Positions 2,719 to 19,414 of a DNA stretch of 64,000 nt are shown here, piece after piece. This stretch comes from Thermomicrobium sp. 4228-Ro (GTDB lineage Bacteria > Chloroflexota > Chloroflexia > Thermomicrobiales > Thermomicrobiaceae). The stretch lies in assembly GCF_026241205.1 (NCBI RefSeq), contig NZ_JAPFQM010000001.1, positions 992,001-1,056,000 of the forward strand, read 5' to 3'. Numbering within the stretch: position 1 is the stretch's first letter; every line of letters begins with the position of its first letter. Made by a program: the position numbers and the translations under genes. Under the pieces are notes generated by a model, which was not told where the DNA came from, did not search any database, and saw only the letters and a program-made list of their open reading frames with translations.

Positions 2719-2724
2719 TCGCTC

Positions 2725-2762
2725 GCGGGGGTGACCGGGCTCGCTCGTCCGGTCACCCCCGC
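2725..2762 (+). terminator. Probable hairpin terminator after the SBBP-type gene
   Basis: A perfect 14-bp stem (GCGGGGGTGACCGG paired with CCGGTCACCCCCGC) surrounds a 10-nt loop and begins 7 nt after the stop codon. No T-run follows, so it may be weak or act as an RNA 3'-end stabiliser. Confidence 0.55.
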
Positions 2763-3227
2763 CGTGCTCCCACCGGGCGCCAAAACCACTGAGCCGCGGT
2801 CGAGTGGTGACGGGGGTTTCCGCCGCCGAGGGGAAACCCTGACCGCCCCGGCCAGCGGCGTCGGTCGCCCGGGTATGCTCGCGCTCGCCCGACCCGCCTG
2901 CGGGTGGCCGCAGCTGGCACGCCAGGGGCTGCTGGACGCGGGACACGCCTCGCGAGTCGCCGCCCAGGAACCGGCCCGGTCCACCCGCCTCTCCGCCGCA
3001 GCGCGTCGCGGCGCGCGGGCGCCGCCGCGTGCCCCGCCCCACTCGCAGCTGGCACCGCAGCCGCGCCTCGGCCGACCGTGCGCGGCGCGCCGCGCTCGGC
3101 AGCTGCGGTGGCGCGCGCAGGACGTTGGCAGCGGGCGCGCCCCACGAACCCTTCCGTAATGTGCCGGAGGCGCGGCGCCGACCGGAACCGTCCGTCGCGC
3201 CGCGCACCCCGGCCACTGCAACCAAAG
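2763..3227. other. Gene-free interval between two surface-protein genes
   Basis: About 465 bp between two converging genes, each with its own terminator hairpin. Open frames exist on both strands, but they are Arg/Ala/Pro-rich readings of GC-rich DNA without a ribosome binding site or recognisable domain. I see no promoter, RNA gene or repeat here. Confidence 0.4.
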
Positions 3228-3259
3228 ACCGGGGCCGGGCCCCTGGGCCCGGCCCCGGT
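3228..3259 (-). terminator. Intrinsic terminator of the S-layer-like gene
   Basis: A perfect 15-bp stem (ACCGGGGCCGGGCCC and its complement) has a 2-nt spacer and lies 21 nt past the minus-strand stop at 3281. On the minus strand it is followed by CTTTGGTT, a modest T-rich tail. Confidence 0.75.
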
Positions 3260-3280
3260 AACCCGCTCAGTCGAGCTTCA

Positions 3281-5923
3281 TCAGCTCTCGCTGAGCGTCA
3301 AGGTGAGGGAGTCGATGAGCGGCTCACCGGCATCGTGGACGCCGTTGCCGTTCTGGTCCCAGTACAGCTCCACGACGACCGTGTCGTCCGTGCCGTCGTC
3401 GTTGTAGTCGCAGGCGTAGACGTCGAACGGCGTGCTCGCGGCGTTCACGGTCGCGTCCGTGCTGTTCTGGTCAGGCTGGTTGCACGGTGCGAACGAGGCG
3501 TCCACCGGGTTCGGCGTGGCCTCGTTCAGCACCAGCACCACCGGCACCGACGCTGCGGACACAGTGCGGTTCACCGCCACCGTCCAGTCGCGGATCGTGT
3601 TCCCGACGCCGGTCTCCGGCGCGTTACCATTATTAGCCGGGAACGTCTGCGCGAGCGTCAGGCCCACCCAGTCCTTCGACACCACCGCGTACGGCTCGGT
3701 CGCCTTGTCGCAGACGCCGTTGTCGTTGAGGTCGGCGCAGACCAGCACGTCGTCGTGATGCGTGTCCGTGCCTGTGTCTGTGCCTTCGATGATGAACTGG
3801 GCCTGACCGTCGGCATCGGTCGCCTCGATGGCGTCATCGTCGCCGGAGAGCTGGAACGTCAGGTCGGCCGGGCCGCCGTCGACATCGGCTCCGTCATGCA
3901 ACGACCCGTCGAGGATCTCGAACAGGATGTTCGTGCCCTCGACCGGCTCGCCACCGAACGTCAGCGTCGCGGTGATGGTGTGGTCCGGGCAGTCAAACGT
4001 CAGGTTGCCGTTCTGGTCGCGCACCGGCTCGCAGACGTTCACCGCGCTCATCGGGTCGACCGCGAGGTTGTAGGTCGGCGCGGGCACATCGATCGGTGGC
4101 GTGAGGAAGCAGTTGTAGGTGGCCGAGCCGTCGTACTGGACATCGTAGTTCACGTTGTTCGAGACACAAGCCACCGGTCCACCCTGGACCACCTGCATCA
4201 ACACCGAGCCACGGAAGCCGTTGGGCATCTCACTGTACCACGGCGCGTAGAGGATCGCCCCACCCTTCGGCTGGAGGTCGATGACGATCGGCGTGCTCAG
4301 GGTCGGCGCGACCAGGAAGCCGGCACCGTCGTAGAACCAGGCCTCTACCCGCGCACCGCTGTTGCGGTTCGCATTGAAGATGGCGATCCCGCTGTTGTCG
4401 TTCTGCTGCGTCAGCCCATGCTGCTTCTGGAAGAGCGCGACGGACAGCGTGCCCGGGATGTCCTCTGGGCCGTTCACCTGGGCGAACGTTCCTTGCTGCG
4501 CGAGGTACCCGGAGGCCTGCCCGACGTCCCGGTCAGCGCCAGTGTACTTCACGTAGTCGACAGCGGCCGCCAGGTTGCGCCCGTTCGTCGAGCGGATCAC
4601 CGCTTGCGCGAGCGAGTTGGTGCCGATGTCGGTGTTCGCCGGCAGGTAGATGTACTCCATGCCGCGCGGCTCGATCGACAGGCTGTCGGCGAAAACGATC
4701 GACCCGTCCTTGTTGTAGAAGGTGATATCCACTTCATTGTTGGCCGACGGATCGAGGTTCGCGACGCTGATGCCTGTGTTCCAGCCGTTGTACGCCTGGT
4801 AGACGAGTGGCGCGTAGACCTCGAACCAGTTCCCCACAGTCGGCTGGGCGACGTTCGTGATTGCCATGTTCACCGGCGTACCCCAGGGCTGGGTTGGCTT
4901 CAGGCGCTCGGCAGTCGCGCCGATCGGGCAGTCGGCCGTCACGAAGGCCGTGCCGACCCAGCCAGTCGGCCAGTTATACTCGTGGACGAGATCGATCTGC
5001 CAGGTCTCGCCCACGCCCAGCAACTTGGAGAAGTGGCCGTCCGATCCGTGGGACGAACCTTCGGTCGCCGCGTAGAGGTCGACGTTCACCGAGCAGTTGC
5101 CCGGGCCGGGATTGAAGTTGGTGATGAAGAGCACCGTGTTCCAGCCGTTGTTCGTCTGGACGATCGGGAAGCTCCAGCTCCAAGCGGGCAGCAGCACCAC
5201 GTCCGAAGCCGGCAGCGAGGTGTAGCCCGTCACCGACTCGTGCGCCTTCGAGGTCCACACGGCATCGTGGAGGTCGGCCGGCGACGCTTCCTTGACCACA
5301 CCGCCGATGCGTGGGTGCACCGCGTTCCCGCACGTGACGGAGACCGTGTAGGTCGAAGCCGGTCCCGGCTCGTCAGCCAACGGACCAGCCGGGGCCCAGC
5401 TGATCGTCAAGATCGACCCGGTCTGGAACCAGAAATAGTCCTCAAGACTCTGGAACGTCGTGGCGCCCTGCGTCACGGTCACGCTCGCAACGGTGCAGGA
5501 ACCGACGTCGATATCGTCGCTCCCGTTCGGTGTCGCTCCACGCGTGACCGTGAACACAATCGGACCGTTGATCGTCCGCGCGACCGCGTAGACCCCACCG
5601 CCCGACTTGTCACCGAAGAGCTGTGCAGCCGACCAACTCTTCGAGGCGTGGGGCTGGAAGTTCACACCCGAAGAGGGCGTTATCCGGGTTCCATCCGCCT
5701 TGTAGATATCGACTACGATGCGGAACGGCTCGATGTTTTGGATGGTCAAGGAACCGTACCACGGCCCCATGTTCCCGTATTCCTCGCCGTTGGGGAGGAA
5801 CGGGAAGTAGATCTCGTTGCCGAGGTCCTCGACCACCGCCCCCGCCGGCGCGACGGCGAGCGAGGCGAACGCGCTCACGGCCAGCGCCAGCGCTGTGAGC
5901 AGGCTGATCAACCGCTTACCCAT
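3281..5923 (-). CDS. S-layer-like secreted protein with repeated beta modules and Ig-like C-terminus
   Basis: 880 residues. The ATG at 5923 was chosen because GAGGAGG lies just upstream and a classic signal peptide follows (MGKRLISLLTALALAV, cleavage near AGA-VV at ~29); the longer frame upstream only reads GC-rich DNA. The mature part has about four related beta modules marked by G-W-(Y/N) then IxVxN and a FYxxDG-like turn, at residues ~53, ~260, ~380 and ~510. The last ~290 residues look like two Ig-like/Big-type domains, ending in a D/N-rich segment (CDYNDDGTDD, DQNGNGVHDAGE) that may bind calcium. This end resembles the product of the frameshifted gene near 14 kb. Strong terminator and RBS suit an abundant envelope protein. 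Function as S-layer is inferred from architecture. Confidence 0.7.
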   Translation of the reverse strand: MGKRLISLLTALALAVSAFASLAVAPAGAVVEDLGNEIYFPFLPNGEEYGNMGPWYGSLTIQNIEPFRIVVDIYKADGTRITPSSGVNFQPHASKSWSAAQLFGDKSGGGVYAVARTINGPIVFTVTRGATPNGSDDIDVGSCTVASVTVTQGATTFQSLEDYFWFQTGSILTISWAPAGPLADEPGPASTYTVSVTCGNAVHPRIGGVVKEASPADLHDAVWTSKAHESVTGYTSLPASDVVLLPAWSWSFPIVQTNNGWNTVLFITNFNPGPGNCSVNVDLYAATEGSSHGSDGHFSKLLGVGETWQIDLVHEYNWPTGWVGTAFVTADCPIGATAERLKPTQPWGTPVNMAITNVAQPTVGNWFEVYAPLVYQAYNGWNTGISVANLDPSANNEVDITFYNKDGSIVFADSLSIEPRGMEYIYLPANTDIGTNSLAQAVIRSTNGRNLAAAVDYVKYTGADRDVGQASGYLAQQGTFAQVNGPEDIPGTLSVALFQKQHGLTQQNDNSGIAIFNANRNSGARVEAWFYDGAGFLVAPTLSTPIVIDLQPKGGAILYAPWYSEMPNGFRGSVLMQVVQGGPVACVSNNVNYDVQYDGSATYNCFLTPPIDVPAPTYNLAVDPMSAVNVCEPVRDQNGNLTFDCPDHTITATLTFGGEPVEGTNILFEILDGSLHDGADVDGGPADLTFQLSGDDDAIEATDADGQAQFIIEGTDTGTDTHHDDVLVCADLNDNGVCDKATEPYAVVSKDWVGLTLAQTFPANNGNAPETGVGNTIRDWTVAVNRTVSAASVPVVLVLNEATPNPVDASFAPCNQPDQNSTDATVNAASTPFDVYACDYNDDGTDDTVVVELYWDQNGNGVHDAGEPLIDSLTLTLSES

Positions 5924-6354
5924 ACCGAAAAACCCTCCTCGCGTCATCGGCGTGTCCACACGTCGACGACACATCCGCACCGGCCGGACCGCCCGGCCGG
6001 CCGCCGCGCTTCCGCCCCTCCCGGGGCGCGGGGGCGGCTCCCCGTCTCGTCCGCTGCCGCGCGTCGCGGCGCACTGCCCTTCCCCTGGCGCTTGCCCCCT
6101 TCCCAGTCCGGCTTCCCTTCCCTCGACGCGCCGCCGGGTCTCGGCCCGGCGCCCGCGCGCTCCGTCGGAGGCAGCCTTCCGGGCGCGCCGCTCCCGGAAG
6201 GCCGCCGGGCGCAGTCTACCAGCCGCTGGGCTGTCGCGTCCACTCCCGCCGGGAACGCCACCCGACGGGCAGCCCCACCGGGGACTGCACCCATAGGGAA
6301 TAACGAACGAAGGGGGCCAGCGGTTGCGCGGGTGACGCGGGTTCGCCCTGAACC
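5924..6354. other. Upstream region of the S-layer-like gene, no gene seen
   Basis: About 430 bp of GC-rich DNA upstream of the minus-strand surface-protein gene. It must carry that gene's leader and promoter, but I could not find a convincing -35/-10 pair on the minus strand. The long open frames through it on both strands lack ribosome binding sites and look accidental. Confidence 0.35.
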
Positions 6355-6850
6355 CCGTACCGTCTCCCGCGGCGTGCGGGAGAGGGGTGCCCCAGCGTCC
6401 CGTAGGGGTCAGGCGTGCCTGACCCGCCGAGCCCCCCTCACCCCCGGCCCCCTCTCCCGCGACGTGCGGGAGAGGGGGTGCCGCGCCAGCGGCGGGGTGA
6501 GGGTGTCCCCGCGGGCGACGCACGCGCCGCCCCGACCGGGTGTGGGCGGTTACCGGCGGCGGCCTGCCTGTCGACCACCGTCGTCCGATCGACCACCGCC
6601 GTCTTCGTAGGGGTCAGGCGTGCCTGACCCGTCCGGCCCGAGAGGGCCGGCAACCGTGGCCACCGTCCCGCGCCTGACGGCGCGGACGGGCGCGGCACGC
6701 CGCGCCCCTACAGGGAAAAACGCGGACAGGGGTGCCGCGCCAGCGAGGCGGGGGTGAGGGGTGTGCAGACGGACGACGCACGCGTCGCCCCGACCGGGTG
6801 AAACGGGCCGGGGGCACCGCGCCAGCGAGGCGGGGGTGAGGGGTGTCCCG
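6355..6850. repeat. Palindromic repeat block 1 (alpha and beta units)
   Basis: This is the first of several intergenic blocks built from two unit types. Alpha is a ~105-nt unit of several small hairpins bounded by GTAGGGG and CCCCTAC; a complete copy spans 6607-6711. Beta is a nested hairpin: inner stem CCCTCTCCCGC / GCGGGAGAGGG (6450-6476 here) inside outer arms CCCTCACCCCC / GGGGTGAGGG. A third inner-stem copy lies at ~6362-6386, and partial beta arms lie at 6728-6760 and 6810-6850. No coding gene is evident. Confidence 0.85.
6607..6711. repeat. Complete alpha repeat unit with terminal inverted repeats
   Basis: 105 nt starting GTAGGGG and ending CCCCTAC. Inside are four hairpins in order: GTCAGGC-GT-GCCTGAC (6613-6628), CGGCCC-GAGA-GGGCCG, CGCGCC-TGAC-GGCGCG and GCGCGGC-AC-GCCGCGC. 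Other copies in the window keep the pairing but change the bases. Confidence 0.8.
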
Positions 6851-6866
6851 CGGGCAGACCCGGCCC

Positions 6867-7085
6867 TCACCCCCACAACCGCACCAGCAGCTCCAGCAGG
6901 ATCGCCCCGACGACGGTGGTGAACAGCTGGTCGACCCGCCGCCGCACGTCGGCCACGTCGCGCGCTAGCTGCTCGACCATCTGTCGCGTGAGGAGCTCGT
7001 AGGCGCTCCCCGGCTCGGCGCGCAGCCCACCGCGCCGGGCCACCACCTGCCGCAGCCGGGCGGCGCCGGGTCGCGAGACGTCCAC
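6867..7085 (-). CDS. Small holin-like or XhlA-like membrane protein of the phage cassette
   Basis: 72 residues, GTG start with a strong AAGGAGGTG ribosome binding site immediately upstream. The middle (residues ~30-55) is an amphipathic/coiled-coil stretch (MVEQLARDVADVRRRVDQL). The C-terminus is one hydrophobic helix (LFTTVVGAILLELLVRLWG). This coiled-coil plus C-terminal membrane anchor layout matches small phage hemolysin XhlA/holin-accessory proteins, which act with endolysins at the membrane. It is the last minus-strand gene of the cassette, 100 bp after the capsid gene. Assignment rests on architecture and context, not sequence identity. Confidence 0.5.
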   Translation of the reverse strand: MDVSRPGAARLRQVVARRGGLRAEPGSAYELLTRQMVEQLARDVADVRRRVDQLFTTVVGAILLELLVRLWG

Positions 7086-7185
7086 GCTCCACCTCCTTCC
7101 GGTAGCCGGATGGCGGCCGTCGCCCCGCCCGCCCCCGGGCAGGGGCGAGCGGGGAGGACGCCGCCGCGTCGCGAGGAGGGTCGGA

Positions 7186-8073
7186 CTAGTTGGCAGCGAT
7201 CCCTTGCAGGCGGGCGACGGCGACGGTCGAGAAGAGCGCCAGCCCCACGTACCAGCGCACCCGCCAGCGCCGGGCGTTCTTGGTCTCCAGCGCCCCCACC
7301 TCCTCGACCACGATCCCGCCGTTCTCCAGCCCCATCAGCCCGCTCGGCCCCCACTTGACGGCGTAGATCGAGGAGAGGCCGGTGCCGGTGCCGAGCGTCT
7401 CGTTGTCGGGCACGAAGTCGTCGACCAGCACCGGGATGCCGTCGTAGGAGAGGACGCGCTGGCCGAACTGGTCGACGTCGCTCTCCAGCACCGCGCCGCT
7501 CGCCCGGCGCAGCTGGCTGAGCTTGCGGCGCGTCCGCTTCGACATGAGGAGCGCGTCCGGCTTGCCCGGCTTGACCAGGTCGACGAGCTGGTCGAGGAGT
7601 TCGAGCGTGAGGCTGCCGCCGTTCGGCCCCGGCTGGATGGTCTGGCTGGCCGGTACCAGCTTGCGCAGCCCGTCGAACTGGCGCGGGTCGGCCGTGGCGT
7701 CGCCGCTGTAGAAGGCGGTGAGGAAGGCGTGGGCCACCGCCTTGGCCTTGCTCTGGATGACCACCGCCTCCAGCTCGTTGGGGTCGCGGTAGGTCTGCAG
7801 GAGGAAGTGGTCGATGTCGGCGTCGCCGCCGAGGATCTTGAGGCCGGTCGTCACCTGCTGGAAGGTGGGAGTCGATTCCGTCCAGGTGTCGCCGACGTCG
7901 TAGAAGTCGGCGGCCGGCAGCGTCGCCTCGCGGTTGTAGGTGAGCCCGGTACCGACGACCTCCATGAAGGGGAGGCGCTGCAGCACCGGCGATTCCATGA
8001 CGACCGTCTCGATGACGCCGCGCAGCAGCAGGTCGTCGGTCAGCTTGGCCGCTTCCACCTTGGTGAGTGCCAT
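7186..8073 (-). CDS. Phage major capsid protein, HK97-fold type
   Basis: 295 residues; ATG at 8073 has GAGGAGG six bases upstream. The sequence has the layout of a phage/prophage coat family: an N-terminal helix, then TYNREATLPAADFYDVGDTW, the ILGGDADIDHFLLQTY segment, a middle GKPDALLMSKRTRRKL element, and a C-terminal ETKNARRWRVRWYVGLALF end. These segments recur in phage capsid proteins annotated from high-GC bacteria. No scaffold or protease domain is fused to it. Neighbours are an adaptor-like gene upstream and a holin-like gene downstream, which supports a virion role over an encapsulin one. It is separated from the adaptor gene by a 0.5-kb repeat block, unusual for a phage operon. Confidence 0.75.
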   Translation of the reverse strand: MALTKVEAAKLTDDLLLRGVIETVVMESPVLQRLPFMEVVGTGLTYNREATLPAADFYDVGDTWTESTPTFQQVTTGLKILGGDADIDHFLLQTYRDPNELEAVVIQSKAKAVAHAFLTAFYSGDATADPRQFDGLRKLVPASQTIQPGPNGGSLTLELLDQLVDLVKPGKPDALLMSKRTRRKLSQLRRASGAVLESDVDQFGQRVLSYDGIPVLVDDFVPDNETLGTGTGLSSIYAVKWGPSGLMGLENGGIVVEEVGALETKNARRWRVRWYVGLALFSTVAVARLQGIAAN

Positions 8074-8139
8074 GGATGTCCCTCCTCTGCACGAGAAGAC
8101 TGTCCGACGGTCCGCGACCGCCGAGCCGGTGTGCCGCCG

Positions 8140-8595
8140 TCTCCGTAGGGTTCAGGCGTGCCTGACCCGCGGAGCCCCCCTCACCCCCGGCCCCCTCTCC
8201 CGCCCGCCGCGGGAGAGGGGCACCCAACGTCCCGCAGGAGTCAGGCGTGCCTGACCCGGCCGGGCCGCGAGGCCCGGAAACCGGACCCCGGTTCCCACGC
8301 CAGCGGCGCGGACGGGCGACGCACGCGTCGCCCCGACAGGGCGGGACACGATAGGGCGACCGGGATCGGTCGTCGGTCACGGTGGCTCTTGCCGTGCCGC
8401 CGTTCCCTGTGTAGGGGTCAGGCGTGCGTGACCCGCTGAGCCCCCCTCACCCCCCGACCCCCTCTCCCGCGCGGTGCGGGAGAGGGGGTGGCGAGCGCCA
8501 GCGAGGCGGGGGTGAGGGGTGTCCGACCGGGCGTGGTGTGTCGCGCCCCGACCGCAAAAACGTGGACAGGTGTGTCGCCGGAACGACCCGGGGTG
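8140..8595. repeat. Palindromic repeat block 2
   Basis: Contains alpha hairpins near 8152, 8240 and 8417, an almost complete alpha copy at about 8234-8343, and two beta nested hairpins (inner stems near 8190-8220 and 8460-8490). The block fills the gap between the adaptor-like and capsid genes. No coding gene is supported in it. Confidence 0.85.
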
Positions 8596-8623
8596 CGCGG
8601 TGTTCCGCGGGCACCCCGCGTCC

Positions 8624-9187
8624 CTACGGGTCGGTAACGTGGCGGGGCACGGTGCGCACCGTGCGCGGCAGGGCCCGGGCCGCCCGCTCGCGCTCGGCCC
8701 GGGCGGCGGCCAGCGCAGCGACGAGCGGCCCGGTCGGTCCCTGGCGGCGGGCCTGGTGGGTGAGCCCGGCGGCCAGGAGCGCCTCGCGCGCCGCCGCCAG
8801 GACGAACGCCTCCTCGGAGGCGTCGGCCAGCGGCAGGGGGTCGGTCGGCGCGCTCGGCAGCGTGCGCGCGAGGAAGCAGCGCACCTCGAGCGCGCCCTGC
8901 ACCGGCTCGCCGAGCAGGAGCTCGCCCGCCCAGACGCCCCAGCCAGCGAGCGGCACCCCCTCGCGCAGGACGGCCAGGACGCGCCGCACCCCGGCCGGGA
9001 GCGGGAGGCGATCGGCCCCACCGGCCGCCAGCGCGACCCTCCCCGGCCAGGGGACGAGCGCGTCCAGCTGGGCCAGCGCCGCGGCCAGCGCGCCGTCGAG
9101 GTCGGCGTCCGACCAGGCGGCCGGCGCAGCGGTATCGGCGAGCGCGCGGCGCAGCGCCGTGCGCGCCGCCGCGAGCGTGAGCGCCAT
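8624..9187 (-). CDS. Phage head-tail connector/adaptor-like protein
   Basis: 187 residues, ATG with AAGGAGG upstream. The N-terminal half is mainly helical and starts MALTLAAARTALRRAL followed by WSDADLDGALAAAL. This W-D-x-D-L-x-x-A pattern is typical of gp6-like head-tail adaptors that join portal to tail. The C-terminal third is Ala/Arg-rich helix. It lies upstream of the capsid gene on the same strand, but a repeat block lies between them, so cotranscription is uncertain. Family assignment is from pattern recognition and position only. Confidence 0.5.
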   Translation of the reverse strand: MALTLAAARTALRRALADTAAPAAWSDADLDGALAAALAQLDALVPWPGRVALAAGGADRLPLPAGVRRVLAVLREGVPLAGWGVWAGELLLGEPVQGALEVRCFLARTLPSAPTDPLPLADASEEAFVLAAAREALLAAGLTHQARRQGPTGPLVAALAAARAERERAARALPRTVRTVPRHVTDP

Positions 9188-9294
9188 CGGTCGAGCCTCC
9201 TTTCCTCGTCCGCCGATCGCGCCCGCTCAGGCGAGTGACCGGCAGCCCCGCAGCTGAGCACGGGCAATCGGCGTGTACCATCAGGCGTGTCGCG

Positions 9295-9405
9295 TGACGC
9301 GGGGTCGGCCCATCGCTCCGGGGGTGCACCCCTCACCCCCAGCCCCCTCTCCCGCGGCGTGCGGGAGAGGGGGCGCCGAGCAGCGGCGAGGCGGGGGTGA
9401 GGGGG
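9295..9405. repeat. Palindromic repeat block 3 (one beta nested hairpin)
   Basis: One nested hairpin: outer arms CCCCTCACCCCC and GGGGGTGAGGGG, inner stem CCCTCTCCCGC / GCGGGAGAGGG with loop GGCGT. It lies between the divergently arranged adaptor-like and DUF559 genes, directly upstream of the latter's ribosome binding site. Confidence 0.85.
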
Positions 9406-9431
9406 GATCGTTACAGGAGGGTAGGCAAGCC

Positions 9432-9803
9432 ATGGACGAGCGACGCTCGGAACGGTCGCTGCAGCGGCGCCTGCTGCGGCGCTACCAGACCCGCGCGGAG
9501 GAGCGCCTGTGGGCAGCGATCCGCGGTCGCCAGCTGGACGGTTGGAAGTTCCGGCGACAGCACCATATCGGTCCGTACGTCGTCGACTTCGTCTGCCTGG
9601 CTGCCCGGCTCGTCGTCGAGGTCGACGGCCCGGTCCACGCCGAGCAGCGCGACTACGACGCAGCGCGCGACGCCGAGCTGACTGCGCTCGGGTACCGTGT
9701 CCTCCGGCTGGAGAACGTGCTCGTCCTCGAGGACCTGCCGCGCGCGCTCGCTGCGATCCGGCAGGCGCTGGCCGATCCGCCCCGCTCGCCGAACCGCCCA
9801 TGA
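9432..9803 (+). CDS. DUF559 endonuclease-like protein (Vsr/PD-(D/E)XK fold)
   Basis: 123 residues; ATG at 9432 follows AGGAGG at 9415-9420. It has the DUF559 signature: RAEERLWAAIRGRQLDGWKF, then RRQHHIGPYVVDFVC, VVEVDGPVHAEQRDYD and a terminal helix after YRVLRLENVLV. The D of VDFVC and the E-x-D of VEVDG fit a PD-(D/E)XK nuclease core as in the very-short-patch repair family. It is the only plus-strand gene in the phage part of the island. DUF559 proteins are often found singly in mobile regions; the substrate is unknown. Confidence 0.85.
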   Translation: MDERRSERSLQRRLLRRYQTRAEERLWAAIRGRQLDGWKFRRQHHIGPYVVDFVCLAARLVVEVDGPVHAEQRDYDAARDAELTALGYRVLRLENVLVLEDLPRALAAIRQALADPPRSPNRP

Positions 9804-9851
9804 CCGACACGACCCCCGCGGTGCGGTGTACCGGCACGCCCCGCCGCGCCC

Positions 9852-10460
9852 CTACAGCGCCAGCGTGGCGCGCAGGCGACCGAGCCAGCGGCGCACCGTG
9901 CGCGGCGTCACCCCCAGGCGGGCCGCCGCCTCGCCCGGCCGGTACCCGGCGGCCAGCAGCTCGACCAGCGCCCGGTCGGTCGGGTCGAGCCCGGCGACGA
10001 GCTCGCAGCGCCCCAGCTCCTCGGCCGCGACGGACGCGGGACGCGCTGACCGGCTGCCGGACGGGTGGGCACGCTGGGAGGAGCGTGCCCCCTCGAAGCG
10101 CCGCAGCGCCGCCGCGAGGCGCGGCGCGAAGTGGGCGAAGACGTACCCGGCGAAGCTGCCGCGCTCCGGCCAGCCCGCGACCAGCTCGCAGAAGACGAGG
10201 AACCCCTCGTGCCGCACGTCGTCCAGCTCGGCCAGCCGCACCCAGTGGCGCGCGGCCAGCCGGCCCGCCACCCGCTCGCAGAACGGCTCGAACCGCCGGT
10301 AGAGGGCGTTGCGGGCAGCCGGGTCGTGGCGGGCCAGGCGCGCCAGCCCGTCCAGGTACCCTTCGGTCACCGCGTCGAATGCGAGCGGGAGCGACCCCGC
10401 CCGCCGCGCCCGCTGCCGACCGTCCTGCCACCCGCTCCGGCCCCGCTGCTCGTCCGCCAC
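9852..10460 (-). CDS. Sigma-70-like / HTH regulator of the phage cassette
   Basis: 202 residues from GTG at 10460, chosen because AAGGGG lies just upstream and a promoter lies ~40 nt further; the longer open frame continues into repeats. Residues ~30-120 look like sigma region 2: a helical AARNALYRRFEPFCERV segment, LAELDDVRHEGFLVFCELV, then AGYVFAHFAPRLAAAL. After a Ser/Arg-rich linker, the C-terminus (~155-200) is a region-4-type helix-turn-helix: LDPTDRALVELLAAGY, GEAAARLGVTPRTVRRWLGRL. This is the layout of a small alternative sigma factor or phage late regulator. Its promoter overlaps a LexA-type box, suggesting induction by DNA damage. Targets are unknown. Confidence 0.6.
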   Translation of the reverse strand: MADEQRGRSGWQDGRQRARRAGSLPLAFDAVTEGYLDGLARLARHDPAARNALYRRFEPFCERVAGRLAARHWVRLAELDDVRHEGFLVFCELVAGWPERGSFAGYVFAHFAPRLAAALRRFEGARSSQRAHPSGSRSARPASVAAEELGRCELVAGLDPTDRALVELLAAGYRPGEAAARLGVTPRTVRRWLGRLRATLAL

Positions 10461-10491
10461 CGCCGACCCCTTCCCGGTACAACGAACGTTC

Positions 10492-10535
10492 CGCACAGAT
10501 GTTCGCATTGTAGAGGTGGAGCGCGGCCGTGTCAA
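10492..10535 (-). promoter_or_regulatory. Sigma-70 promoter overlapped by LexA-type operator
   Basis: On the minus strand: TTGACA at 10530-10535, a 17-nt spacer, TACAAT at 10507-10512. The box CGCACAGATGTTCG at 10492-10505 matches the Gram-positive LexA consensus CGAAC-N4-GTTCG at nine of ten fixed positions and would cover the start point near 10500. A second palindrome GAACGTTC lies at 10484-10491. The box is 31 nt upstream of the GTG of the sigma-like gene. Confidence 0.7.
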
Positions 10536-10569
10536 GGGGCGCCGCGCGCGCAGGACACCCCACACCTGG

Positions 10570-10735
10570 ACGCGGCACCCCCGGCCTGCCTCACCCGGTC
10601 GGGGCGACGCGTGCGTCGCCCGTTTTCCCCGTCGGGACGCGGCGTCCGCGCCCGCACACCATCCCCTCACCCCCGCCTCGCTCCGCTCGGCACCCCTCTC
10701 CCGCGCCGTGCGGGAGAGGGGGACGGGGTGAGGGG
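10570..10735. repeat. Palindromic repeat block 4
   Basis: Contains a GGGCGACGC-GT-GCGTCGCCC hairpin near 10600-10620 and one beta unit with the long left arm (CCTCACCCCCGCCTCGCTCC) and inner stem near 10694-10720. It lies between the sigma-like gene's promoter and the next minus-strand gene. Confidence 0.8.
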
Positions 10736-10746
10736 GCACCGTCCTC

Positions 10747-11121
10747 TCACCCCGCCTCGTCGGCGTCGCCGAGGCCCAGCTCGCTCGCCAGCTGGGCCAG
10801 CAGCCCCGCCAGGTCGTCCCCCTTCGTCCCGGCCAGCAGGCGCTGCGCCCGCAGCGCCCGTACCTCCACCTCGACCAGCCGCGCCACGTGGCGCACCAGC
10901 TCGCGCGGGTCGGGCTCGGCCAGCAGCACCTCGCCCAGCACCTGGCGCAGCGCCTCGATCTCCCGCCCGAGGTCCCCCGCCGCCCCATCGGCCCGCAGCA
11001 GCGCCAGAATCCGCTCGGCCAGCGCCGCCCGCTCCGGCGGCACCTCCCGCTCGGCCGGTGGGTCGCGCCGCTGCCGCCCGCGCCCGCTGGCCCGCGACCG
11101 GCCTCTCGTGCGCCCGCTCAC
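10747..11121 (-). CDS. Small helical protein translationally coupled to the endolysin
   Basis: 124 residues from GTG at 11121. The GTG overlaps the endolysin stop in a GTGA junction, and GGAGGAGGGGG lies just upstream, so the two are probably coupled. The first ~35 residues are Arg/Gly-rich and basic (SGRTRGRSRASGRGRQ). The rest is predicted helical with heptad-like leucines (ERILALLRADG, IEALRQVLGEVLL, VRHVARLVEVEVRALRAQ). I recognise no family. A basic N-terminus plus a coiled-coil body in a lysis cassette could mean a regulator or spanin-like accessory, but there is no membrane segment. Treat as hypothetical phage protein. Confidence 0.6.
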   Translation of the reverse strand: MSGRTRGRSRASGRGRQRRDPPAEREVPPERAALAERILALLRADGAAGDLGREIEALRQVLGEVLLAEPDPRELVRHVARLVEVEVRALRAQRLLAGTKGDDLAGLLAQLASELGLGDADEAG

Positions 11122-12362
11122 CGCTCCCCCTCCTCCCGCGCCAGCGCGAGCGCGCCCAGCCGCCGCAGCAGCACCTGCCGGCCCGGCGGCAGTTCCTCGT
11201 GGCGCTCGAAGCAGGCGCGCTCGAACCACTGCACCCAGTGCGCGTGCCCGTCCTCGCAGGCCTCGCGCCGCTCGCCGGTCAACGGGTAGCCGAAGAGTTC
11301 CAGCCCGCCGCGCCCTTCCCAATAGGTGAGGAAGTCGCCGCGTACCCACTGCCCGGTCTCCGGGAAGAAGCGCCCCGCCCCGTCGAGGAGCTGCCCCACC
11401 CGCGCGCGGAAGGCATCGAACCCCTGGGCCAGCAGGCGGCGCGGGCAGGTCTTGCCGCTCCAGTGCTGGTGGGGCACCACCCGCTCCGGCCCGAGCCCGA
11501 AGGCCCGGCAGAGCGCCGCCACCAGGCGCGCCCCGTGCTCCTGGGTGCGCGACCAGTCGCCGTCGCGGTTCACGCAGAGCTCGATCCCGATCGAGGCCCG
11601 GTTGCCGGTTCCGTTGACGCCGTCCCCGGCGTGCCAGCCGTTCTCGGTGGTCGGGAGGAGCTGCACCGCCTCGCGGTCGTCGACGACGAAGTGGAAGCTC
11701 ACTCCCTCCGGCCCGCCCCCGGCGTGGACGAAACGCCGGTGCGCCTCGGCGTCGGCTCCCGGGTTCTCGTTGGCCGTCTCGTGCGCGGTGACCCAGCCCG
11801 GTCGCAGCGGGTAGCCGGGCCGGTTGGGCGCGCCCGGCGGCAGGAGCGCGAGGCGCAGCGATAGCCCCGGCACCGGGTCGCTAGCGTGCTGGGCGATGAA
11901 GGCGCGCACGGCTGCCGCGTACGCGGCCGGGTCGTTCCCGTCGCTGGCCGGGGCCCAGAGCGGGACGATCCGCTCGACGGTCGCCGCCCCCTGGCGGCGG
12001 TAGACGAAGTCCGGGTCGACCAGGCGGCGCGCGAGGTCCCGGAACCCCTGCGTCCAGGTGGGGTAGCGCCAGAACTGGCCCCGCCCCGGCACGGCGACCG
12101 GTTGCCCCACGCCGGTGCGGCTGGTACGGGTGGCGCCCGGGTTGCGCAGGTCGTGCGCCGCGACCACCCCGGCGGTGCCGCAGCGGGACTCGTGCCAGAA
12201 GACGGCCAGGGCGAAGAGGGGGTCGACTCCCTCGGCCGCCACCGCCGCCCAGCAGGCGCGCGCTTCCGGCGCCGCCGGTGAACCGGCCGCGGCCAGGACG
12301 GCCGCGAAGCGGTCGGGGTCGACCCGCGGCAGGACGCCGGTGACCAGGAGTTCCTCGGGCAT
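11118..12362 (-). CDS. Modular endolysin: glucosaminidase-like + amidase_2 + wall-binding domain
   Basis: 414 residues; ATG at 12362 with GAGGAGG upstream. Residues ~35-165 look like a glucosaminidase/lysozyme-type domain with a probable catalytic Glu in FWHESRCGT (~58). Residues ~178-330 are an N-acetylmuramoyl-L-alanine amidase (amidase_2/PGRP): zinc ligands in TAHETANE, the later PHQHWSGKTCP His and Cys, plus SFHFVVDD and ASIGIELC. Residues ~335-410 carry the Chloroflexota FPETG...GGLELFGYPLT...QWFERACFERH module, presumably binding the wall. It would cut peptidoglycan at two bond types. It has no signal peptide, consistent with phage export through a holin; a holin-like gene lies 4 kb downstream. 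Confidence 0.8.
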   Translation of the reverse strand: MPEELLVTGVLPRVDPDRFAAVLAAAGSPAAPEARACWAAVAAEGVDPLFALAVFWHESRCGTAGVVAAHDLRNPGATRTSRTGVGQPVAVPGRGQFWRYPTWTQGFRDLARRLVDPDFVYRRQGAATVERIVPLWAPASDGNDPAAYAAAVRAFIAQHASDPVPGLSLRLALLPPGAPNRPGYPLRPGWVTAHETANENPGADAEAHRRFVHAGGGPEGVSFHFVVDDREAVQLLPTTENGWHAGDGVNGTGNRASIGIELCVNRDGDWSRTQEHGARLVAALCRAFGLGPERVVPHQHWSGKTCPRRLLAQGFDAFRARVGQLLDGAGRFFPETGQWVRGDFLTYWEGRGGLELFGYPLTGERREACEDGHAHWVQWFERACFERHEELPPGRQVLLRRLGALALAREEGER

Positions 12363-12394
12363 GGTCGTCCTCCTCTCGGAACGGTCTCGTCGGC

Positions 12395-12890
12395 CTGGGG
12401 CGTGCGGTGCCCGCGGGCACCCCTTGCCCTCCGCTGCGCTCGCGCGCGGCACCCCGGGCGCATGACCCTGTCGGGGCGGCGCCTGCGGCGCCCGCGGGGA
12501 CACCCCTCACCCCCGCCGCTCGCGCGGCACCCCTCTCCGCGGCGTGCGGGAGAGGAGGCCAGGGGGCATTGTCGCGTGCCGCGCCGCAGGCGCGGGAACC
12601 GGGGTTCGGTTTCCCGGGCCTGACGGCCCGGCCGGGTCACGCACGCGTGACCCCTACACGGACGACGCCGGTCGATCAGGGGCCGGTGGGCGACCGGCAG
12701 GCGACCGTTGTTGTTGTGTACCGGTACGACACCCCTCACCCCCGCCTTGCTCGCGCTCGGCACCCCTCTCCCGCACCGTGCGGGAGAGGGGTCGAGGGTG
12801 AGGGGGCTCATGGGGTCACGCACGCGTGCCCCCTACGGGACGTTCGGGCACCCCTCTCCCGCACCGCGCGGGAGAGGGGTCGGGAGGCTC
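12395..12890. repeat. Palindromic repeat block 5
   Basis: Several alpha parts in inverted orientation (about 12585-12660, ending GTCACGCACGCGTGACCCCTAC) and three beta inner stems near 12530-12555, 12764-12792 and 12850-12880, the last two with loops ACCGT and ACCGC. A GTTGTTGTTGTGTACCGG segment at about 12708-12724 is the reverse complement of one in the tandem array at 18.2-18.5 kb. Together with flanking DNA it fills the 0.8 kb between the endolysin and surface-protein genes. Confidence 0.8.
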
Positions 12891-13042
12891 CGACCGCGCC
12901 GCGCCCGCAGGACACCCCCTCCCCTGAAACCGTCCGCGGGGGTCGTTCGTTCTCACTCATGAGAGCCGGACGGCCGCACGGCTCCGCCTGCCGGTACGTC
13001 GGCCCCGATCGGAGAGGGAAGGAGGTGCGACCGTACGCAGGG

Positions 13043-13071
13043 TTGACAGGGTGCGCCTGAACCGCTATACA
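13043..13071 (+). promoter_or_regulatory. Near-consensus sigma-70 promoter of the frameshifted surface gene
   Basis: TTGACA at 13043-13048, exactly 17 nt of spacer, TATACA at 13066-13071. Transcription should begin near 13078, leaving a ~70-nt leader before the AGGAGGTGAGGG ribosome binding site and the ATG at 13150. Confidence 0.8.
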
Positions 13072-13149
13072 GGGTGCAGACGGACGCGGCAGCGCGACCA
13101 CGGAGGACGGTCGGTGCGTCGTGTTGCCAGGACACCGAGGAGGTGAGGG

Positions 13150-13812
13150 ATGAGTTCCCTTCGACCGTTACGACTGTTGCGGAGCCTGACGCCCCGGGCG
13201 CTCTGGCGCCGGACGGGCCGCCCGGTCCCGCTGCGCTGGGCTGGCCTCCTGGCGGCGCTGGCGCTCGTCGTCGGCCTGACGCTCCCCGTGCTCGCCCAGC
13301 AGTGGGTCGGCGCCGGCCACCGCATGCCCGAGGCGCCGCCCGACTGGGCGGTCGCCCCAGCGACGCCCAAGCCGGGCTGCATCTACTTCCCGGAGACGCA
13401 GCACAACCTCTGCGGCGGCTTCCGCCAGTACTGGGAGACCTACGGTGGGCTCCTCATGTTCGGCTACCCCTTGACCGAGGAGTACTTCGCCCCCGAACTG
13501 GGCCACGAGGGGCATAACGGCGTGGTCACCCAGTGGTTCGAGCGGGCCCGCTTCGAGTGGCACCCGGGCGAGATCCCGCAGCGGTTCGACGTGCTGCAGG
13601 GCCACCTGGGCCGCGAGATCCTGGCCATGCTGACCGCCCCGACGCCGACGCCGACGGCGACACCGCTCCCGACCGCCACGCCGACACCCACGCCGACCCC
13701 GACCGCCACGCCCACGCCGACCTCCACGCCGACACCCACGGCGACGCCTACGCCGACGCCGACGAACTCGCTCACCCTCAGTGCCACACACGACATTCCT
13801 CTACAACGGTGA
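13150..13812 (+). CDS. Wall-binding surface protein, N-terminal part (frameshifted gene)
   Basis: 220 residues; ATG follows AGGAGGTGAGGG. A basic N-terminus and one hydrophobic segment (GLLAALALVVGLTLPVLAQ, ~35-55) form a signal peptide or anchor. Residues ~75-160 are the FPETQHNL...GGLLMFGYPLTEEY...QWFERARFEWHPGE module also present in the endolysin. A Thr-Pro repeat linker of ~55 residues (TPTPTATPTP) follows, typical of Chloroflexota secreted proteins. The frame then ends after NSLTLSATH. Its natural continuation, an Ig-like domain, is in the +2 frame from 13781, so a 1-nt insertion in CCACACACG (or a sequencing error) has probably split one ~479-residue protein. Confidence 0.75.
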   Translation: MSSLRPLRLLRSLTPRALWRRTGRPVPLRWAGLLAALALVVGLTLPVLAQQWVGAGHRMPEAPPDWAVAPATPKPGCIYFPETQHNLCGGFRQYWETYGGLLMFGYPLTEEYFAPELGHEGHNGVVTQWFERARFEWHPGEIPQRFDVLQGHLGREILAMLTAPTPTPTATPLPTATPTPTPTPTATPTPTSTPTPTATPTPTPTNSLTLSATHDIPLQR

Positions 13813-14590
13813 TCCTGACGGTGCCGGGAGCTTAAACAACAACCAGTTTATGGTTACAGCGACGGTCATTCTCGGCGGGAGTCCAGCAGCGAGTCGTTGG
13901 GTGCGCTTCGTACTTACTCCGTCGAGCGGAGATTCGGTCTCACTAGCGGGCCCAGTCACCCAGCAAACCACGGGATCGGGCGTGGCAGCGATCGGACCTA
14001 TCTCCTTCACCGACGGTTCAACCGACGGGGGTTCGGTGTTCATTTTCGCTTGCGTCGATCAGAACCTGGATAGCACATGCGACGGCCCCTCCAGCACACT
14101 GACCCTGTACTTCCTGCAGGCGCCTGCTAGCCCGCTCTCGGTTAGCGTGGTCAGTGCATGCGATGAGTCAGGGCAGATCGCTGACAACTGTGTGCCGGGA
14201 GTTGGCAGTCCTCCCTCCGGCCAGCCAGCTGGCAAGGATGCGACACTGACACTCATGCTCAACGGTCCGGCCAGCAGCGCGCCCAGTCTACCCGTGGTGG
14301 CGGTTATTACCGATAGCTCCCCACCGAGCGGCACAACGGCGAGCGCTTCTTTCGCGACCTGCCCAGCATCCGGTGACGGTACGGACGTGCAAGCGAAGTC
14401 GACCTCTTTCGATTCATCCAACCACGTAGCATCGTGGGATCTCTATGTGTGCGGGATCAACAACGACGGCACTAACGATGACACCTTCACAATCAGTGTG
14501 TACTGGGACGTGGACAGCAACAACGCCTATACACCCGGCGTCGATGTGCAAATCGGTACCCTCGTGACAGTGACTATCAACGACAACTAG
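13781..14590 (+). pseudogene. Ig-like C-terminal part of the frameshifted surface gene
   Basis: An open frame of 269 codons in frame +2 relative to the preceding part. Its first GTG has no ribosome binding site, so independent translation is unlikely. It reads on from the Thr-Pro linker as FLYNGDPDGAGSLNNNQF, then two Ig-like beta domains with paired cysteines. It ends in a D/N-rich segment (CGINNDGTNDDTF, YWDVDSNNAYTPGVD) very like the C-terminus of the S-layer-like protein (CDYNDDGTDD...ELYWDQNGNG). Base composition is clearly less GC-rich than the surrounding island. A terminator follows. If the frameshift is an artefact, this is simply the second half of an intact gene. Confidence 0.7.
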
Positions 14591-14615
14591 CCTACGCAGC
14601 CAATCACCAACCAGT

Positions 14616-14646
14616 TGGCCCGGTACCCTTTGTTGGTACCGGGCCA
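14616..14646 (+). terminator. Intrinsic terminator after the surface-protein gene
   Basis: A perfect 12-bp stem TGGCCCGGTACC / GGTACCGGGCCA with a 7-nt loop CTTTGTT lies 25 nt after the stop and is followed by a T-rich stretch (TTCTGTGTGTTTTC). Confidence 0.8.
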
Positions 14647-15159
14647 TTCCGCCTTCTGTGTGTTTTCTATACACTGCTGTGGCTTCGTAACCCCGTGGAT
14701 CCGTGACGCCTATTGCCAACTCACGCACTTCTACTGCTGTTTCGGTCGATATACCTATCCCGCCACGGAACTCTCTGTAGAATCTGTCTCCATCCCCTCA
14801 CCTGAGATCCGTTTGCGGTGGCCGCCGGTGCAGCGAGACTGGCCCTCGAAACAGCTCTTGATCGGTCTCGAAAAGCCGCTTCGCTCGATACTCAAAGACC
14901 GAGAAGCGGAGCGTGACTCAGACCCCAAAGGACCCTCTACAACTGTTTTGTTCTTTCCTCGTTCGCCGCTCCACTGTAGACTCTGCTAGCCTCGCTTCAG
15001 CAGGGGGCAACTGCTAAGTTCGATCCGTGCGGAACCGATGGACTTCGACCGTAAAGGTACAGCCCGCACTGGGCAACGCGCCAGCACAGGCATACTCACC
15101 GACCCTGCCGTACCACAATGGCAAAGTCATGGCAACTTCCACGCTTCCCGACACCGCGA
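14647..15159. other. Lower-GC gene-free segment
   Basis: About 510 bp after the terminator, visibly less GC-rich than its surroundings. One frame (14615-14989) is open but starts inside the terminator hairpin at a TTG without a ribosome binding site and has no recognisable domain. No repeat unit or RNA gene is seen. It could be leftover foreign DNA joined to the surface gene. Confidence 0.4.
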
Positions 15160-15560
15160 GGACACCCCTCGCCCGTGCTCCGCTCGCCACCCCCTCTCCC
15201 GCGGCGTGCGGGAGAGGGGCTCCTCGCGTGTCGCGCCGCGAGGTGCAAGAACCGGGGGTCGGTTTCCCGGGCCTCGCGGCCCAGCCGGGTCACCCACGCC
15301 CGACCCGACGGGTCACGCACGCGTGACCCCTGCGGGGATGGCGGTGGTCTTGCCCGTCGGTGGACGTGCCGTCGGCGACCGCCCTGGATCGACCACACGC
15401 GCATGACCCTGTCGGGGCGACGCGTGCGTCGCGCGTGACGGCACACCCCTCACCCCCGGCTCGCTCCGCTCGCCACCCCCTCTCCCGCGACGTGCGGGAG
15501 AGAGGTCGAAGGTGAGGGGGCTGTCCGCCGCGGGAGAGGGGGCCAGGGGGTGAGGGCAAC
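15160..15560. repeat. Palindromic repeat block 6
   Basis: Contains beta inner stems near 15192-15222 and 15478-15510, a half copy (CCGCGGGAGAGGGGG) near 15530, and inverted alpha hairpins between 15240 and 15330 including GTCACGC-AC-GCGTGAC. It lies directly downstream of the minus-strand tail-like gene. Confidence 0.85.
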
Positions 15561-15568
15561 CACCCCCC

Positions 15569-17359
15569 TCACCCCACCTCGACCAGCTCCAGCTCGAGCC
15601 GCCGCGCCTCGCCCGGCGCGGTGCCCCCCAGCCGCTCCTCCAGCGCCACCAGTTGCACCAGCTGCGTCGTCCCCGGCGCGGCGTCGACGTCGCGGAAGGC
15701 GAGCGGCGTCCCGCTCCGCCAGGCGTCCCAGAGGAGACCGGCCAGTGCGGCCGGCTCGCGCGCGTCCACCGCGCCGTCGTCGCGCGGGAGCAGCGGCCCC
15801 AGCTGCACCGCGAAGCGCCAGCGCCGGCGCGGCAGCCACACCGCCTCGCTCGCGCCGCTGCCCCCCGCGCTCGCCCCCGCAGCGGCAAGTCCCCACAGGC
15901 CCACCACCGCCGGCGACCAGTCGCCCGTGCCGCTCACCCGGACCTGCACCTGCAGCGCCGCAGCCTCCAGCGGCAGCGGGAACCGCTCCTCGAGGACGAC
16001 GAACCCGCTCGCGGCCCCGCCCACGCTGCGCGCGGCACCCCAGCTCCAGGTGGCTCCGGCGTCGCTGCTCCAGCCGAGTTCGGCCGTCACCGGCGCGCCG
16101 CCGCCCTCCAGCCAGGCCAGCGCCGCGCCCGCCCCCAGCCAGGGGACGCGCGCCTGCGGCACGGCGGTGCAGAGCCCGCTCGTCACCTGGAAGCTCGCCC
16201 GCAGGCCGGGAAAGCCCGGGCGCGGCTGCGCCTGCAGCGCCAGGAGCCCGCTCGCCCCCGCCCGGGCCAGGAAGAGGTCGAGGTCGGGATGCCGCCCGCC
16301 CACCGCGACCGGCCAACCGGCACCGGCGTCCGTCCACTCCTCGACCAGGTACCAGGGCTCGGCCCGCTCCCAGTCGAGCGCCAGCCCCTGCAGCGTGGCC
16401 AGCCGCCCCGGCGTCGCCCAGAGCTGCCAGCGCCCGCTCGCCGCCTCCTGCACCACCACCCAGAGGAAGCCGCCCGCACTGGCTGCCCCGCGCGTCGCCA
16501 GCCCGCCCGGGCCGACCGGTGTCCAGCCGCGCACCGTGCCGGTCGTGTCGCAGCGGTGCACCTGCCCGGCCAGCCAGGTGTAGAGCGCCGTGCCGTGCCC
16601 GGTGAGGAAGGCGCCGTCGTCGTCGGCCAGGAGCGGCGGGTGGGTGAAGAGGAGCTCGGCCGTCGTCCCCTTGACCCGCCACAGGGCGGTGCGGGTGAGC
16701 GCCCAGACGGAACCGGCGTGGCTGGCCAGGCGCCGCACCGGCGCGTCGAGCTGGAGTGTCGTCGCGCTGGTCGCCGCGGTGTAGCGCAGCAAGCGGTCGT
16801 CTTGGCCGGTCGCGGTCGGGACGAGATACCCGGCCTGGCCGTCGGTGGCGATGAGTCTGGCGGTGTTCTGATAAAAGCCGGTCGTGTAGGTGCCGGCGGC
16901 CAGGTCGACGCTCGAGACCTGGGCGGCTGCGCCGTGGGCGAGCAGGAGCCGCGTCCCCAGCTGGCAGGCATCGAGCACGCTGGCGGCCAGCGTGCGCACC
17001 TCGCTGAGCCCGGCGGAGGGGCTTCCGGCCGTCCCGGCCAGGCGCCACTGGCGGTTGCCGGCGACCAGGTGCACTTCGGGTGCCAGGATGCCGCTCCAGG
17101 CTGGGCTGGCGAGCGGCCAGTTGGCCGGTGCGGCGACCGGGCGCAGTGCCGGCCCGGCGCGCAGCCCCTGGCCGTCCCAGACGGGGAGCGCACCGAGCGA
17201 CCGCCAGTAGCGGTCGGCAGCCCGCTGGAGCGCCTGCCCGCCGCCGGCGAAGCTGCGCACCGCGACGCGCACCGGCCCGGCCGGGCGGCGCCCGTCGCTC
17301 TCGCGGCGGTAGCTGCCGGGGAGGACGACCAGGGGGATGCCGGCCAGTTCGACTTCCAC
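15569..17359 (-). CDS. Phage tail-like structural protein with propeller-like body
   Basis: 596 residues, GTG start 3 nt after the upstream gene's stop, so the two form an operon. The N-terminus (MEVELAGIPLVVLPGSYRR) and the end (RRRWRFAVQLGPLLPRDDG, then LAFRDVDAAPGTTQLVQLV and ERLGG...RRLELELVEV) resemble the all-beta ends of phage minor/distal tail proteins. The middle ~350 residues contain repeated W-containing beta strands (GSVWALTRTALWRVKG, GTALYTWLAGQVHRCD, GFLWVVVQEAASG, WQLWATPGRLATL), as in a beta-propeller, perhaps for receptor contact. No signal peptide or membrane segment is seen. The phage role is inferred from the ends and the neighbours. Confidence 0.5.
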   Translation of the reverse strand: MEVELAGIPLVVLPGSYRRESDGRRPAGPVRVAVRSFAGGGQALQRAADRYWRSLGALPVWDGQGLRAGPALRPVAAPANWPLASPAWSGILAPEVHLVAGNRQWRLAGTAGSPSAGLSEVRTLAASVLDACQLGTRLLLAHGAAAQVSSVDLAAGTYTTGFYQNTARLIATDGQAGYLVPTATGQDDRLLRYTAATSATTLQLDAPVRRLASHAGSVWALTRTALWRVKGTTAELLFTHPPLLADDDGAFLTGHGTALYTWLAGQVHRCDTTGTVRGWTPVGPGGLATRGAASAGGFLWVVVQEAASGRWQLWATPGRLATLQGLALDWERAEPWYLVEEWTDAGAGWPVAVGGRHPDLDLFLARAGASGLLALQAQPRPGFPGLRASFQVTSGLCTAVPQARVPWLGAGAALAWLEGGGAPVTAELGWSSDAGATWSWGAARSVGGAASGFVVLEERFPLPLEAAALQVQVRVSGTGDWSPAVVGLWGLAAAGASAGGSGASEAVWLPRRRWRFAVQLGPLLPRDDGAVDAREPAALAGLLWDAWRSGTPLAFRDVDAAPGTTQLVQLVALEERLGGTAPGEARRLELELVEVG

Positions 17360-17362
17360 GGC

Positions 17363-17776
17363 TCAGCTCCGCTCGCGCCCGAGCGCCCGGGCGATCTTCT
17401 CGAAGGGGGAGAGCCGCCCGGCCTCCGGTTCGGCGAGGTGCCGCGGCGCACCGGCGCTGACCGGCGGGAGGGCGCGCTGCGCCTCGGCCAAAAGGCGCGC
17501 CCGCAGGGCCACCGCCCGCTCGGCGCTCGCCACGAGCGCCTCCAGCGTGTCGCCGCTCACCAGCTCCGGCAGCGCCTCGGGATAGGCGCGCAGCACCAGC
17601 GCCCGCAGCGCGTCGAGCGGCACTGGCGTCGCGGGTAGCGGTGGGGCCGGTTCGCTCGCCGGCCCGGCTGGAGCCGGGACGTCCGGGGCCGCTGCCTGCT
17701 CGGGGTGCTCGGCCGCCTCCGGTGCGCTCGGGGCAGCCGTGTCGAGCGCCGGCTCGGGGATCTTCGGGTCGGTCAT
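17363..17776 (-). CDS. Ala/Pro-rich small protein heading the tail-like operon
   Basis: 137 residues; ATG at 17776 follows GAGGAGG. The first ~60 residues are Pro/Ala/Glu-rich and probably disordered. The second half is helical (LDALRALVLRAYPEALPEL, then LEALVASAERAVALRARLLAEAQRAL) and ends in a basic tail (FEKIARALGRERS). It lies three bases upstream of the tail-like gene, so it is probably cotranscribed. Similar low-complexity plus helix proteins near phage tail genes can act as scaffolds or chaperones, but I recognise no family here. Confidence 0.6.
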   Translation of the reverse strand: MTDPKIPEPALDTAAPSAPEAAEHPEQAAAPDVPAPAGPASEPAPPLPATPVPLDALRALVLRAYPEALPELVSGDTLEALVASAERAVALRARLLAEAQRALPPVSAGAPRHLAEPEAGRLSPFEKIARALGRERS

Positions 17777-17859
17777 CCGTCGCCTCCTCTCGTCTGCCTC
17801 CACCGGGAGGACACAGCGCGACCGGCCCGAAAGCGGACACCGCCCGCCCGGCGCCGTCC

Positions 17860-18035
17860 CCCTGTAGGGGTCGGGCGTGCCCGACCCTTCCGAGCCCCCG
17901 ACCCCCTCTCCCGCGCCGTGCGGGAGAGGGGGTGGCGAGCGCCAGCGAGCCGGGGGTGAGGGGTGCCCTGTGGCCGACACGCATCGTCAACGGTCGCCTG
18001 CCCATCGCCGAGCCCCACCCCGAGATCACCATCAC
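17860..18035. repeat. Palindromic repeat block 7
   Basis: A GTAGGGG-led alpha hairpin with stem GTCGGGC / GCCCGAC (17870-17885) is followed directly by a full beta unit (inner stem near 17903-17935, right arm with GGCGAGCGCCAGCGAGCC). It lies upstream of the Ala/Pro-rich gene, where a promoter would be expected; none was recognised. Confidence 0.8.
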
Positions 18036-18900: not shown

Positions 18901-18959
18901 GTACCGCAGGGTGGACACCCGCACCCGCCACGCAGCCACCCCTGCCGCAACGCGCGCGT

Positions 18960-18989: not shown

Positions 18990-19012
18990 CGTGGTGCGCG
19001 CCGGTGCGCGAT

Positions 19013-19406: not shown

Positions 19407-19414
19407 AGGCACCC

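Follow-up and report, generated by a model that had tools for sequence, protein, structure and literature searches.

A LexA-repressed ECF sigma factor probably switches on a domesticated, podovirus-derived, GTA-like particle cluster in the Thermomicrobium genome studied here, with what is probably a genuine LexA operator at the promoter of the sigma gene. We analyzed a 64-kb stretch of this genome (the window) together with the corresponding regions of relatives. The original prediction, in which DNA damage acts through LexA on a sigma factor gene and, through the sigma factor, on the particle genes, is supported as a whole. The same wiring appears to recur across the order and, in part, across the phylum. 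It looks like a DNA-damage-induced gene-transfer particle, unreported to date, in a heat-loving bacterium; the analysis was computational throughout, and we refer to the cluster as GTA-like only.

The promoter of the sigma gene, TTGACA-N17-TACAAT, is present on the minus strand as predicted, with the -35 element at 10530..10535 and the -10 element, beyond a 17-nt spacer, at 10507..10512. One base separates TACAAT from the predicted LexA box (10492..10505), which reads CGAACATCTGTGCG on the minus strand and CGCACAGATGTTCG on the plus strand and fits CGAACN4GTTCG at nine of ten fixed positions, as had been claimed. The box lies directly 3' of the -10 element, and the predicted start site is thus covered by it. 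The sigma ORF (9852..10460, minus strand) follows; its GTG start, at 10460, is preceded by the ribosome site AAGGGG. In two congeners (L036 and L037), boxes CGCACACTTGTTCG and CGTACATATGTTCG, each one base off, occupy the identical position, one base on from TTGACA-N17-TA(C/G)AAT; the -35 element and its spacing are the same as in the window, the -10 element is TACAAT or TAGAAT, and the spacer sequence is unrelated.

The LexA consensus, which the original prediction had assumed, proved to be correct for this genome, for the order and for the phylum. The single lexA gene of the genome has its box, CGAACGGATGTTCG, within a TTGACA..TATACT promoter (TTGACACGAACGGATGTTCGCACCTATACT), and boxes are also present at recA, ruvB and an imuA-like gene (the last two names being assigned by reading translations). 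Within the order, the best box matched at least nine of ten positions in 28 of 30 lexA promoters, positions 2-5 and 10-13 being invariant across these 28 boxes. The motif was found in lexA promoters of other Chloroflexota too, which supplies a likely LexA consensus for this phylum. Another strong LexA-type box of this genome, CGAACATCCGTTCG (L162:2188, contig C6:903188), lies about 200 bases from apparent CRISPR repeats.

CGAACN4GTTCG with at most one mismatch is common, with 467 sites in the 3.07-Mb genome, and bare counts of this pattern, being weak evidence, were dropped. On a weight matrix derived from the order's 28 lexA promoters, the window box scored 17.4, above the recA box of the same genome (15.8); it was the sole site in the 64-kb window to reach that score, which was attained by no site in 15 shuffled windows. 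No direct LexA box was found at the structural genes of this genome: in the first 25 kb of the window, the threshold was reached only by the box at the sigma promoter. The box directly follows a sigma-70 promoter close to consensus, and congeners show the same arrangement, which makes a chance match unlikely. Its deviation is a T-to-G change at position 12, where all 28 lexA boxes agree, and this core mismatch predicts weaker LexA binding. With that position altered, we term the box a probable, weakened LexA operator.

Most relatives have a LexA box ahead of the sigma gene or of its operon, well outside the genus as well. Across the order, 14 more genera have such a box in front of the operon that includes the sigma gene, arranged as dinB-com-sigma or com-sigma, and in other genera of the family the first gene of the boxed operon is dinB, a classical SOS gene; Thermomicrobium has kept the box and the sigma gene without that dinB and com. 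Distant families have the same layout: a box (AGAACATATGTTCT, for example), next a small zinc-finger gene, presumably Com-like (two scans of one member gave no family match), and then the sigma gene. In 20-kb loci from fifteen genera, including Thermomicrobium, 14 strong boxes fell in the 92 kb no more than 3 kb away from the sigma gene and one in the remaining 186 kb, these loci being related by descent rather than independent. Some sigma homologs, such as that of G028 (L109), had no strong box in the stretch read. No Y-family polymerase was found in six congeners, some with incomplete genomes, and the only match in the genome studied here, split over two frames (contig C1:1108831-1109263; L367, L368), may be a broken gene. 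Although this polymerase is missing in those congeners, and in the genome studied here is split and located elsewhere, the sigma gene still has its box, suggesting that the box was retained on account of that gene. The dinB and sigma genes of sister genera (L106, L107, L108, L110, L119 and L120) share one LexA-headed operon, coupling an error-prone polymerase with the particle switch.

In some relatives, LexA control sits directly on the structural operon, which refines the picture of a sigma relay. A LexA box lies ahead of this operon in four relatives and, in Dehalococcoidia clusters, just 3' of a TTGAC element at its head. The box of 12 Dehalococcoidia clusters, AGAACATATGTGCT, bears a T-to-G change identical to that of the window box, suggesting that one-off boxes are tolerated or even favored for this element. 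The operon-head boxes of the Dehalococcoidia are preceded by a second conserved element, approximately GYGACAAAAT, with TTGAC a short distance further on (a few bases; L276, L287, L298, L302, L304, L311, L313, L317 and L327), which suggests an activator site or an extended promoter.

Two readings without a LexA operator at the sigma gene were weighed against this evidence. If the box were a chance or decayed match, the sigma gene would be constitutive in this species; the core mismatch, the abundance of loose matches across the genome and the loss here of a palindrome that flanks the box in congeners all point in that direction. We consider this very unlikely, because the box is the only site in the window at its matrix score and outscores that of recA, because congeners have a box at the same position, and because the same base change recurs at the operon heads of 12 Dehalococcoidia clusters. 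It is likewise very unlikely, in our estimation, that the box serves a different repressor whose half site resembles that of LexA: many boxes of the element do differ by one core base from lexA boxes, and in some the palindrome is extended by A/T arms, but perfect LexA-type boxes are found at this place in many relatives, in some of them with dinB as the first gene. A LexA operator, if a weakened one, remains the preferred reading.

The regulator downstream, originally described as sigma-like, belongs to the sigma-70 family, and the most fitting label for its 202-aa product is ECF-type sigma factor. Pfam sigma-70 region 4 was matched, and a profile of 27 relatives aligned over its full length with solved ECF sigma structures (best E 1.4e-10); this end-to-end alignment gave the ECF layout, with regions 2 and 4 and without region 3. 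The sigma70-ECF model TIGR02937 was matched by 27 of the 27 members (best member E 8.2e-20), the protein encoded in the window scoring 34.9 bits, under the curated cut-off of 42.9. Of the 61 genomes of the order, 36 have homologs, mostly in single copy, and a search of viral contigs for the sigma gene gave one weak match only. A plus-strand ORF (9273-9803), nuclease-like of the DUF559 type by eye, lies between the sigma gene and the gene for F23.

The particle genes of the window are all on the minus strand. The major capsid protein (7186..8073) was identified by phrog_212 (E 1.7e-77) and PF20911, and the N-acetylmuramoyl-L-alanine amidase (11118..12395, start uncertain), a lysis protein, by PF01510 (E 1.8e-21) and phrog_3088 (E 1.8e-42). 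F5 (17363..17776) is a scaffold-like protein with a weak PHROG scaffold match (phrog_2592) and an ortholog in congeners. F12 (15569..17359), a conserved protein of 596 aa that is 73-74% identical in congeners and gave no match in family searches, is a probable tail component by its position. F23 (8624..9187; 62% identical in congeners) adjoins the capsid gene, and a head-tail adaptor role is suggested for it from position only. Two small proteins are also conserved: F9 (10747..11121; 81% identity in congeners), whose gene usually opens the structural operon of relatives, and F2 (6867..7085; 67-68% identical in congeners), assigned to the cluster by family grouping. The genes for terminase (contig positions 984959-986542) and portal (987599-988852) are located a short way beyond the window. 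In congeners, the genes run F5, amidase, F9, F2, terminase, portal, F23, capsid; F12 lies past these, and the sigma gene is encoded on the other strand. In the genome studied here, this operon has been rearranged and filled with repeats, and the element could therefore be decaying. GC-rich palindromic repeats (GGGAGAGGGG... and GGTCAGGCACGCCTGACC types) occupy many of the gaps between cluster genes at window positions 1-20000 (8130-8560 and 10560-10740, for example), and similar repeats are present in congeners. A plus-strand gene (13150-13812) encodes a domain that the amidase has towards its C terminus (aa 342-418, 49% identity) and is 90% identical, over 112 aa, to an ORF of one congener.

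A candidate target of the sigma factor was identified by matrix and pattern searches, the link between the two being one of co-occurrence. This non-sigma70 promoter motif, TGTCCGCTTTC-N15-TGTCCTC (17807..17839, minus strand), lies ahead of the scaffold-tail block, with F5 as the first gene after it. The general form, TGTCCGCTTTC-N15-TGTCYTY, has three copies in the genome, two of which head the scaffold-tail and portal-terminase blocks, the latter copy being located outside the window, ahead of the portal gene (contig C1:988925-988957). In congeners, TGTCCGCTTTC is found upstream of the first structural gene, with the second element 26 bases on, at constant spacing. The layout precedes F5 in the genome studied here, F12 in one congener, and the terminase gene or F9 in a sister genus. 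With a matrix trained without the genome studied here, the site at 17807-17839 scored 25.6, the next best site in the window 14.7, and no equal score was obtained in 384 kb of shuffles; the portal-terminase copy scored only 13.7. As a regular pattern, the motif had six matches in seven genomes of the genus, five of them at cluster genes (F5 in three genomes and portal in two) and one probably spurious; a reversed control pattern had one match in the same genomes. There were no matches in G026 and G027, neither of which has an intact cluster. The strongest single hint of function is that the displaced portal-terminase block has a motif copy of its own. The motif occurs in Thermomicrobium and one sister genus, and the matrix gave nothing convincing in distant families, the sigma proteins of which are 30-40% identical.

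The original prediction of a phage-like cassette held for the gene families, which are clearly those of phages, but the cluster is not an ordinary phage, being vertically inherited and single-copy. Capsid, portal and terminase genes were present in single copy in most carriers; the capsid gene, found in 37 of the 61 genomes of the order, had a single match in most of them. In several genomes, the sigma, capsid, terminase and portal genes lie on different contigs or far apart, in line with GTAs, which are endogenized, often at multiple loci (PMC9662315). Capsid distances followed LexA distances (r 0.82, 0 of 5000 permutations, 13 genomes), a correlation consistent with the mostly vertical inheritance and co-diversification of GTAs (PMC9662315). 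Purifying selection acts on both capsid and portal, with capsid dN of 0.04-0.08 versus dS of 0.7-1.2; terminase values involving G022 were left out because of a reading-frame error. The named organisms among the best 80 capsid matches, from about 85,000 species genomes, all belonged to the Chloroflexota, and the best match in phage records had 42% identity. Congeners G026 and G027, one of them 99% complete, have no sigma, terminase, portal or intact capsid gene, and G026 still holds a short capsid fragment. Many short IMG/VR contigs classed as viral (L176-L255, mostly 4-12 kb) encode capsids 51-72% identical to that of the window and may be host particle clusters mislabeled as virus.

These distributions bear on two further explanations. 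The sigma factor could be repressed by LexA and yet serve ordinary DNA-damage genes, the phage-like genes being mere neighbors, as the sigma gene lies inside a dinB operon in relatives and far from capsid genes in several genomes. We judge this unlikely: the TGTCC motif hardly occurs away from cluster genes, the displaced portal block being among those that have it, and it is missing from the congeners without an intact cluster. Sigma and capsid are also missing together from two congeners, the capsid fragment aside. The clear phage families of the terminase, portal, capsid and amidase, and the distant capsid relatives held by true phages, would suit an ordinary temperate prophage or prophage remnant, induced by the SOS response in the usual way. 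This is quite improbable in light of the single copies, host-tracking distances, purifying selection, unlinked loci and phylum-restricted best genome relatives; on reading by eye, the ORFs flanking the cluster (recA, a transporter and a dehydrogenase) looked chromosomal, with no integrase or replication genes recognized among them. The evidence taken together favors a domesticated cluster under the control of its own sigma factor.

The sequences themselves show the box, the promoter, the family assignments, their conservation, the distribution of the motif and inheritance in step with the host. From these we infer that LexA binds and is cleaved, that the sigma factor is specific for the motif, that particles are made and that DNA is transferred, in the following order. 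In the undamaged cell, LexA positioned over the start site would keep the sigma gene off. DNA damage would activate RecA and LexA would be cleaved, after which the housekeeping RNA polymerase would make the ECF sigma factor. The sigma factor would then guide polymerase to TGTCCGCTTTC-N15-TGTCYTY ahead of the two blocks, scaffold-tail and portal-terminase. Production of capsid, packaging, tail and lysis proteins would follow, the cell would probably lyse, and the particles released may carry host DNA.

If this is correct, a short circuit consisting of LexA, an ECF sigma factor and two promoter blocks ties particle production directly to DNA damage. It may also explain some short metagenome contigs taken for viral that are really host particle genes. 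For the phylum, we see an even chance that the Chloroflexota possess an ancient, phylum-restricted GTA family wired to the SOS response either by LexA on the structural operon or, in Thermomicrobiales, by an ECF sigma relay, with one-off boxes perhaps limiting particles to heavy damage. How GTAs are switched on is a standing question. To our knowledge, recognized GTAs come from few lineages, and their links to the SOS response are mostly indirect. We found no report of such particles in Thermomicrobia or Chloroflexota in the open-access literature, with few subscription journals included.

Among known systems, the portal, adaptor and capsid family matches resemble the head modules of SU10/SPP1-type phages; they differ in that no complete phage genome was seen here and the capsid is at most 42% identical to phage records. 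The sigma-like factor Xpf acts on the late operon of PBSX, a defective prophage of Bacillus subtilis. PBSX, the source of Xpf, is SOS-inducible, packages random host DNA fragments of about 13 kb and lyses the cell (PMC4243946). The likeness lies in particle genes, here predicted to be SOS-inducible, with a sigma-like factor; the sigma likeness itself is weak and generic, the NCBIfam model "positive control sigma-like factor" being matched by 6 of the 27 members. Unlike PBSX, LexA itself apparently acts on the sigma promoter here, the head genes are podovirus-like, and the cluster is inherited through an order. The Caulobacter GTA, the particles of which aid DNA repair, has the activator GafYZ and a LexA-like repressor, RogA, which has no cleavage residues and is not LexA (PMC9632790); it shares the two-tier repressor-activator logic but has no ECF sigma relay of this type. 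In the RcGTA of Rhodobacter capsulatus, the effect of LexA is described as indirect, via CckA (PMC9638019). RcGTA also has vertically inherited particle genes and one dedicated activator with sigma-like parts, GafA (PMC9638019), but the phylum is unrelated and GafA is not a plain ECF sigma factor. The Thermomicrobium system would appear to work in a way similar to PBSX/Xpf or RcGTA/GafA, but it is a member of neither.
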